NCBI GenBank assembly: GCA_902826935.1
Contig: CADEGR010000014.1
Span: 6,163-57,637 of the forward strand
DNA from: an uncultured Alphaproteobacteria bacterium
GTDB taxonomy: Bacteria > Pseudomonadota > Alphaproteobacteria > Geminicoccales > Geminicoccaceae
DNA length: 51,475 nucleotides
Reading direction: 5' to 3'
Positions 48,773 to 51,475 of this stretch are shown here, one piece after another. Each line of letters starts with the position of its first letter. The first letter of the stretch is position 1. Under the pieces are notes generated by a model. That model did no database searches, was not told the DNA's origin, and was given only the letters and a program-made list of their open reading frames with translations. Both the position numbers and the translations under genes were made by a program.

Positions 48773-50596
48773 ATGTGTGGAATTGTCGGCATTCTGGGCA
48801 GCCAGACCGCTGCGCCCCTGCTGCTGGAGGCGCTCAAGCGCCTGGAATATCGTGGCTATGACAGCGCCGGCATTGCCACCCTGGTCGATGGCCAGATCGA
48901 GCGCCGCCGCGCCGAGGGCAAGCTCGTCAATCTCGAGCGCGTGCTGCGCGAGCGCCCGCTCGCTGGCGCCATCGGCATCGGCCACACCCGATGGGCGACC
49001 CATGGCGCGCCGACCGAGGACAACGCCCATCCGCATGAGGCGAACGGCGTGGCCGTGGTCCACAACGGCATCATCGAGAATTTCGAGGCGCTCCGTTACG
49101 AGCTGATCCAGAAGGGCCACCACTTCACCACCCAGACCGACACCGAGGTGGTGCCGCATCTGGTCGGCGCCTATCTCGAGCAGGGCCTGGCGCCGGTTGC
49201 GGCCGCGAAGGCGGCGCTGGCCCGGCTGGAGGGTGCCTTCGCGCTCGCCTTGCTGTTCCAAGATCAGCCGGATCTCTTGATCTGCGCCCGGCGCGGCAGC
49301 CCGCTGGCGATCGGCTATGGCACCGGCGAGATGTATGTCGGCTCGGACGCCCTGGCGCTCGCCCCGCTGACCGACCGGATCCAGTATCTGGACGAGGGCG
49401 ACTGGGCGGTGGTTCGGCTCGAAGGGGCCACCATCTACGATGCCCAGGGCGCCGAGGCGGCGCGCCCGATCGTGCAGACCGCCTTTTCCGGCGCGCTGAT
49501 CGGCAAGGGCAACTACCGCCACTTCATGCACAAGGAAATTCACGAGCAGCCGGCGGTGCTGGGCGATACCTTGCGCGCCTTTGCCAGCCCCTTGGATCAC
49601 CGGATCCAGCTGCCCGATCTGCCGATCGATTTCGCCGGGCTGTCACGGCTGCAGATGGTCGCCTGCGGCACCGCCTCCTATGCCTGCATGGTCGGCAAAT
49701 ACTGGTTCGAGCAGCTGGCGGGCCTGCCGGTCGATGTCGAGATCGGCTCGGAGTTCCGCTATCGCGGGACGCCGCTGGATCCGAAAGCCGCCGGTCTGTT
49801 CGTCTCCCAATCCGGCGAGACGATGGACACGCTGGAGGCGATGCGCCACGTCAAGCGCGCCGGGCTGAAGACGATCGCGGTGGTCAACGTGCCGGAGAGC
49901 ACGCTGGCGCGCGAAGCGGATTGTCAGCTGCGCACCTTGGCCGGACCCGAGATCGGGGTGGCCTCGACCAAGGCCTATACCACCCAGCTCGCCACGCTCG
50001 CCTGCCTTGCGATCGGCGCTGCCAGGGCGCGCGGCCGCCTCACGCCGGAGCGGGAGGCGGCGCTGACCCAGGCGCTCGACGAAGTGCCGGCGCGCGCGGC
50101 CGAGGTCTTGATGCAGGACGCGGCCTTCGAGCGGCTCGCCCACGAGCTGAGCCATGCCCGCGACGTGCTCTATATCGGCCGCGGCACCAGCTATCCGATC
50201 GCCCTTGAGGGAGCGCTGAAGCTCAAGGAGATCAGCTACATTCACGCCGAGGGCTATGCCGGCGGCGAGCTCAAGCATGGGCCGATCGCGCTGATCGACG
50301 AGCATGTGCCGGTGATCGTGGTGGCGCCGCGCGATGCTCTGTTCGAGAAGACCGCCAGCAATCTGCAGGAGGTCGTGGCCCGGGGCGGCAAGGTGATCCT
50401 GCTGAGCGACCAGCAAGGCTGCGATCAGCTGCGCCAATATGTCCACACCTCGATCGCCCTGCCGACGGTCGATCCGGTCGTGGCGCCGCTGCTCTACGCC
50501 ATCCCGGTGCAGCTGCTCGCCTATCATACCGCCGTGGTCAAAGGGACCGACGTCGATCAGCCGCGCAACCTGGCCAAGTCCGTGACCGTGGAGTGA
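48773..50596 (+). CDS. glmS: Glutamine-fructose-6-phosphate aminotransferase
   Basis: This 607-residue enzyme makes glucosamine 6-phosphate for peptidoglycan and LPS. Cys1 in MCGIVG is the glutaminase nucleophile; HTRWATHG and HNGIIEN follow. The isomerase half has VACGTASYACMVGKYW near 301-316, SQSGETMDT and AEGYAGGELKHGP, and it ends with the family tail NLAKSVTVE. GGGAGG lies upstream of the ATG. No glmU or glmM is in the window. Confidence 0.97.
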   Translation: MCGIVGILGSQTAAPLLLEALKRLEYRGYDSAGIATLVDGQIERRRAEGKLVNLERVLRERPLAGAIGIGHTRWATHGAPTEDNAHPHEANGVAVVHNGIIENFEALRYELIQKGHHFTTQTDTEVVPHLVGAYLEQGLAPVAAAKAALARLEGAFALALLFQDQPDLLICARRGSPLAIGYGTGEMYVGSDALALAPLTDRIQYLDEGDWAVVRLEGATIYDAQGAEAARPIVQTAFSGALIGKGNYRHFMHKEIHEQPAVLGDTLRAFASPLDHRIQLPDLPIDFAGLSRLQMVACGTASYACMVGKYWFEQLAGLPVDVEIGSEFRYRGTPLDPKAAGLFVSQSGETMDTLEAMRHVKRAGLKTIAVVNVPESTLAREADCQLRTLAGPEIGVASTKAYTTQLATLACLAIGAARARGRLTPEREAALTQALDEVPARAAEVLMQDAAFERLAHELSHARDVLYIGRGTSYPIALEGALKLKEISYIHAEGYAGGELKHGPIALIDEHVPVIVVAPRDALFEKTASNLQEVVARGGKVILLSDQQGCDQLRQYVHTSIALPTVDPVVAPLLYAIPVQLLAYHTAVVKGTDVDQPRNLAKSVTVE

Positions 50597-51475
50597 CCAG
50601 CTGTCGCCGTGCTGCAGGATGTGCTGCCTGAGGCTCGATCGACCGCCAGGTGAGTGCGTCGGTCGCCACCCTCACCAAGACCGCCTCGGCGCGCGCGGCT
50701 ATCTCGACTGCGGCAACGCCGACGCATGCCGCTGGAGCAACACGGCGGCACATGGGCGCTCATCTGGCCAAGCGTCCGAAGGCTCGCCGCCAGCGGCCAG
50801 CCCTTGCCCGGCGGCCATAGACCTGGCGGATCAGCGGAACATTGGTCTTTGGCTACGTCTGGCGACTAGGATCAGAACCTGATCAGGCTAACCGCTTAGC
50901 CCAATCAACCCAATCTTCAGCTATTCCGGCGATCCTGCCGATGGTCCATGCGACCCTGGGAATCCGCGCCGTTAGCAAGTCTATTGACCGACGCGCGGAT
51001 TCCCAGGATCGCATGGACCAAGAACGCTGCGTCAGCTTCGGCCCAAAGCGTTAAGAAATGGTTGGCTGCTTCGACCATTGCGGCAGCAGCGGCGAGGGGC
51101 GTGACCAGTCAGCTGCAGGCATCGATCGGGGTGCGGCCTTAGGCTTGAGCCGCCCCCGGCCCACTCGATAAATATGACAGAGATGGTGATACCCCGGTCG
51201 GCGATCGTCGGACGCTTGGCGGCAAGGCTTCACCAGGCTTGGCGCGACGGGCTCCGGGCCGTGGTGCAAGGCGTCTGCGCCAGCCGCAACGGCGGCCAGC
51301 ACCTCCCCCGCCGGCTCACGCGCCTAAGGCCTTGCGCCGCCAGCGCCGTGATCTCGAGCACAAGATCATCGGGCAAGGGGCTCTGGCTGCGCGCGCGTCG
51401 CAGACCTGTCACCACGGCGCCCGTTCGCCCCATGGCGGCAGAGCTGCTCGAGCCTGGCCGACGCGCGCGATCCGG
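50597..51475. other. 879-base region without a convincing gene
   Basis: After glmS no frame has both a ribosome site and protein-like composition. A 70-codon plus frame (50842-51054) runs through the inverted repeat and is unlikely. A minus frame at 51230-51433 could be a gene entering from the right edge but is not recognised. The region includes a 28-bp inverted repeat and resembles decayed or regulatory DNA. Confidence 0.5.
50942..51020. repeat. 28-bp inverted repeat with 23-base spacer
   Basis: The arms at 50942-50969 and 50993-51020 are reverse complements at 27 of 28 positions (one C/T difference), beginning TGGTCCATGCGA. The 23-base spacer is not symmetrical. Such a long stem could be a MITE-like remnant, a terminator or structured RNA, or a binding site for a large dimer. 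No flanking direct repeat or transposase is visible. Confidence 0.7.

Follow-up and report, generated by a model that had tools for sequence, protein, structure and literature searches.

An abundant intergenic palindrome in an uncultured alphaproteobacterial genome, perhaps an old miniature element that has lost its mobility and whose arms are kept as protein sites

What keeps a long and nearly perfect inverted repeat in DNA that carries no gene? The question is raised by the end of the window, by which we mean the whole stretch of 51,475 nucleotides analysed here, taken from an uncultured alphaproteobacterium of the Geminicoccaceae. An earlier note had singled out a 28-bp near-perfect inverted repeat at 50942-51020, standing in about 880 gene-poor bases, and had proposed a MITE or other mobile remnant, a palindromic element or a structured RNA. 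The repeat is real: a repeat search recovered exactly the same arms and spacing, with 28 nt in each arm (50942-50969 and 50993-51020), 27 of 28 positions complementary (96%) and 23 nt between them. The surroundings are indeed poor in genes, since our gene caller, which was home-made and trained from nine genes of the window, places none in the 879 bases from the end of glmS at 50596 to the end of the window at 51475, which coincides with the end of contig C14. Folded as RNA, positions 50935-51027 reach -60.7 kcal/mol against a mean of -27.3 for shuffled sequences (z -9.8), a value equalled by none of 200 shuffles. The GlmS protein has its nearest homologue within the plasmid collection in Azospirillum (65%), which makes an alphaproteobacterial host likely.

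A search for other genomic copies, the check that had been recommended, found 42 related places in the same genome, a draft of 289 contigs that is 94.69% complete; the single copy without conservation that would have suggested a chance remnant was not what emerged, and the arms are conserved among these places. The hairpin used as a query gave 80 strand-wise matches, a profile search of the fetched loci gave 82 (corresponding to 41 places), and one further place, on contig C146, was reached with a longer query. Both arms can be aligned in 40 of the 42. The arm motif TGGTCCATGCGAYCCTGGGARTCCG, searched in this genome without its first base and with up to three mismatches, occurs at 95 places, 57 of them exact, and its reversed control at none. 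Eighteen additional arm-bearing places were fetched beyond the 42; in four of these (L066, L074, L077 and L078) the profile aligns over nearly the whole unit, and they are pairs with a decayed second arm, while in the remaining 14 it aligns over part of the unit, mostly about half. Half elements, with an exact arm and no partner arm, exist alongside the pairs.

The conserved length, measured over 41 copies oriented by their flanks, is about 275 bp, and its parts in the copy of the window are the following.

50866 to 51142, plus strand: whole repeated unit, from CTAG to TTAG with the A side on the left, delimited by conservation over 41 aligned copies
50870 to 50887, plus strand: left terminal repeat, consensus GGTCAAAACCCGATCAGG
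50900 to 50941, plus strand: outer module, consensus TTAACCC..CTTCAGC..CCGGCGATCCTG, mean pairwise identity 0.66, repeated in genome G010
50942 to 50966, plus strand: left arm of 25 bp, with pairing that reaches 50969, mean pairwise identity 0.92
50967 to 50995, no strand: loop or spacer between the 25-bp arms, 29 nt in the window, mean pairwise identity 0.50
50996 to 51020, minus strand: right arm of 25 bp, with pairing from 50993, mean pairwise identity 0.88
51021 to 51066, minus strand: outer module of the B side, inverted and diverged, identity 0.60; the unit profile scores nearly equally on both strands
51122 to 51139, minus strand: right end, in inverted relation to the left end, degenerate in the window copy

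The spacer keeps a length of 27-31 nt across 40 copies. At a 1% shuffle threshold, a profile built from the left end also picks up the right end in 10 of 38 copies (the window copy is not among the ten) against 3 of 38 in the forward-strand control; the likeness of the right end is weak, and the terminal repeats, supported to this extent, are degenerate. The left end is flanked by CTAG in five, TTAG in two and CTAA in two of the 28 copies in which it is recognisable; at the right end, no consistent duplicate of the left-flank target was found in the copies. Several copies start immediately after the TAG stop of a gene, and among the 12 copies with a gene stop close by on the A side, that stop is TAG in nine and TGA in three, compared with a background of 66 TAG stops in 195 called genes.

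The placement of the family is intergenic and avoids divergent gaps. All 60 examined places are clear of called genes if an overlap of up to 15 nt is allowed, and the neighbours of the 38 places at which both were called are in tandem in 20 cases, convergent in 16 and divergent in only two. In the window, 38% of intergenic bases lie in divergent gaps and 4% in convergent gaps, although the excess is approximate because this background comes from a single window.

Conservation within the unit is uneven. Averaged over all pairs of 39 copies, identity is highest in the arms, at 0.92 on the left and 0.88 on the right (values biased upward, as most copies were recovered via their arms). It falls to 0.66 and 0.60 for the two outer modules, 0.54 and 0.46 for the left and right ends, 0.50 for the loop and 0.32 for sequence outside the unit. 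In the same 39 copies, the flanks of the closest pair are 0.80 identical and the median is 0.57, and thus none of the copies seems to be of recent origin. Even the arms vary, with decay in several of the right ones, and the abrupt boundaries of their conservation would argue against gene conversion. When only the outer parts served as the query, on loci already fetched, there were 45 matches: an arm follows with no mismatch in 29, with one to four in 13 and with seven in one, and the two without a recognisable arm flank one assembly gap. A coding role for the arms was considered and rejected, since their two free positions, judged by eye, fit no single reading frame and, within a stretch of 54 nt, each of the six frames is interrupted by a stop in some copies.

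A long inverted repeat in bacterial DNA is commonly taken for a hairpin, and here the two meanings that conservation of such a repeat can have are separable. Two arm positions vary freely, one as Y and one as R, and at each of them the base in one arm is independent of the base in its partner arm (Fisher p 1.0 and 0.72). Over the whole arm, in 39 copies, differences within a copy (2.95) are as many as between copies (2.91; permutation p 0.68). The covariation score, calculated for 20 aligned copies out of the 42, was 0.051 against 0.052 after shuffling, and thus gave no sign of the compensatory changes to be expected in a stem maintained for pairing; each arm is apparently kept as sequence and not as one side of an RNA stem. 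Because the arms are the best-kept part and do not covary, the stem appears to be incidental to the presence of two inverted sites, and this suggests that the arms are still under selection as sequence. Three arm sequences folded alone gave z values of 0.37, 0.91 and 0.24, so that a single arm makes no hairpin.

The structured RNA guessed at in the earlier note therefore finds no backing in compensatory arm changes, nor is there an Rfam family in the window at gathering score; the four matches at E up to 1 (three microRNA families and one snoRNA family) all fall far below it. A more specific form of the idea, that the hairpin acts at the 3' ends of transcripts as a terminator or as a 3'-end stabiliser for the adjacent gene, is unlikely in our view but would account for the great stability of the stem and for a placement that is convergent and biased to gene 3' ends. 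In the 20 aligned copies, 95.8% of stem cells can still pair and the combinations at arm position 13 are mostly G-U or G-C. However, such a level of pairing is what keeping both arms as sequence would also give, arm position 21 is unpaired in 6 of the 20 copies, and base preferences at position 13 differ between left and right arms. Further, both the half elements and the missing covariation speak against a role that needs both sides of a stem.

The reading that we prefer, and to which we give about an even chance, is that the family is an old palindromic element, intergenic and specific to this lineage, which once spread as a miniature mobile element without coding capacity, is now immobile and has its arms kept as candidate protein sites. 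The element would have spread through this genome with its degenerate terminal repeats at CTAG-like sites, inserting mostly beside the 3' ends of genes, and would since have stopped moving, so that its ends and flanks are now fossil. Each 25-bp arm would be a putative recognition site of a sequence-specific DNA-binding protein, with two such inverted sites about 54 bp apart from centre to centre, and selection would act on them in place. Copy number, anatomy, placement, the conservation of the arms and their lack of covariation are shown by the data, whereas past mobility, present immobility, selection in place and the binding protein are what we infer from them, such a protein being the most economical explanation for the retention of the arms. 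If a protein does bind them, the genome already contains dozens of natural variants on which this can be tested; if none does, the family clearly exemplifies a miniature element outliving its means of moving.

The suggestion of a MITE, mobile remnant or palindromic element has held up in part. In its favour are the 42 places, their intergenic position and the probable, though degenerate, inverted repeats that terminate the unit at CTAG-like sites; a consistent target-site duplication was not found, nor was a parent element with these ends. The 23-base consensus of the left end, searched genome-wide with up to three mismatches, occurs at seven places, all of which are left ends of copies already in the set, which leaves no parent with the same left end at that threshold, although more diverged parents are possible. 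Like known bacterial MITEs (Correia/NEMIS, ERIC, RUP and RPE; PMC2229807), the family is small (about 275 bp), non-coding, multi-copy and intergenic, with apparently inverted ends, TA-containing termini and a strong fold. It differs from them in being longer, in its very degenerate ends and in having its best-kept part in an internal pair of arms instead of at the ends. Because the duplication and the parent are missing, we do not file the family as a proven MITE.

Past movement could also have been of another kind. A REP/BIME-type family moved by a RAYT transposase that is now lost, or that lies in an assembly gap, would resemble this one in several ways: the GTAG and CGTC families described in PMC3733652 too occur as inverted pairs with a spacer and as single halves, lie between convergent or unidirectional genes near 3' ends, and have termini that give TAG stops. 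This origin is nonetheless doubtful. The arm is not itself palindromic, its conserved part is far longer than in REPs, and its consensus, read by eye, carries neither the GTAG nor the CGTC tag. In addition, no Y1 (RAYT-type) transposase was matched in the 94.7% of the genome that is represented, a criterion that applies to GTAG REPs, since CGTC REPs are said to have no dedicated RAYT (PMC3733652). As the arm fails the REP features tested, the family is not filed as REP despite its REP-like placement.

One genome of another genus in the family, G010, bears on this question. Among 31 family genomes, it is the only one besides the present genome with the same spacing of the outer module, which it has at five places. 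There, the module belongs to a different repeat with an exact 16-mer of its own, GCCGCGCGCAGCGCCT, found at 11 places in five of the seven G010 loci examined (which include L142:2-820, L143, L144, L050 and L052). G010 has two Y1 transposases, and one of them has this motif roughly 150 bp upstream, a point in favour of a RAYT; the other has no such motif nearby. In G010, at L141:2195-2323, there are also two exact 33-bp direct repeats, the second of which overlaps the beginning of the reading frame for the Y1 transposase that lacks the motif.

The arms could instead matter for methylation. Alphaproteobacteria have intergenic inverted repeats that contain GANTC, known as CIR repeats (PMC2229807), and the Caulobacter repeats CIR1-CIR4, which are CcrM-associated, share with the window family their alphaproteobacterial host, intergenic position, inverted structure and GANTC. 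The motif is present in 35 of 40 left arms and 28 of 40 right arms, with a variable N, and is thus conserved within the inverted repeat. In 296 kb (the window and the fetched loci), GANTC occurs 337 times against 716 expected from a second-order model, a ratio of 0.47 that makes it the rarest of 16 N-centred palindromes and may hint at CcrM. However, TCNGA (0.49) and CTNAG (0.53) are nearly as rare, conservation of the four GANTC bases does not exceed that of the other arm positions, the N is limited to A, G or, rarely, C and thus not free, and GcrA has no match in this genome. The architecture also differs: CIR1-CIR4 are described as having about 110 bp and two arms with GANTC at or near a loop (PMC2229807), whereas in the window family the motif falls within the two strands of a single long stem. 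We consider it improbable that the family is a CIR-like carrier of CcrM methylation sites with a regulatory or replication-linked role; the GANTC in the arms and its rarity elsewhere speak for such a role, and the missing GcrA and the unexceptional conservation of the bases weaken the case.

There is an equally slim chance that the arms form a dedicated lineage-specific system, in which about 95 near-invariant 25-bp sites, dispersed among the genes and mostly in inverted pairs with nearly constant spacing, would serve an architectural or chromosome-organising binder. Compared with the present genome, the genus of G010 keeps one outer module but another invariant motif, as though a binding site and its protein had been replaced jointly between lineages. 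Hardly credible at all is a chance remnant or assembly artefact, for although 22 of the 42 copies are found no more than 1 kb from the end of a contig, where about 12% would be expected, the many diverged copies in contig interiors with varied gene contexts already refute it, and the reversed control of the arm pattern found nothing to set against its 95 places. The excess near contig ends does mean that the assembly is disturbed there, and the arms may be the cause of the breaks.

Two contigs, C65 (609 bp, 80%) and C63 (480 bp, 75%), match the end of the window (50873-51464) beyond the unit, and some copies thus lie inside a larger repeat. On contig C18 (L145:2101-2322), an identical stretch of the outer module flanks a run of N on both sides, a doubling that is probably an assembly duplicate.

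The distribution of the arms is narrow. At up to two mismatches, they are present in one of 31 family genomes, the one studied here, and absent from the other 30. The arm pattern has no match in IMG/VR, the 83-base hairpin has none in phages and a single 29-base match (E 0.6) in plasmids, and none of the papers listed in literature searches describes the arm motif in its title or abstract. With fixed spacing, the outer module occurs in nine of 385 genomes of the class (12 times in the present genome and once in each of the others), and a looser pattern occurs in 13 of the 31 family genomes.

In the contig collection, where the search may omit near records of the genome itself, the exact 23-base arm pattern occurs on two MAG contigs. 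One, from a Desulfobulbaceae MAG (L046:6626-6704, 42% GC), holds one arm pair with the 29-nt type of spacing, three bases from the contig end, and is consistent with transfer or with a chimera. The other (L045:1-640), from the Rhizobiales MAG RBC094, carries two half elements, each behind a copy of the 3' end of one gene, and is the only contig of that MAG with arms. At its start, 212 bases match contig C227 of the present genome at 99.5% identity, with divergence beginning just past the arm, and it is probably a misbinned contig from a near relative.
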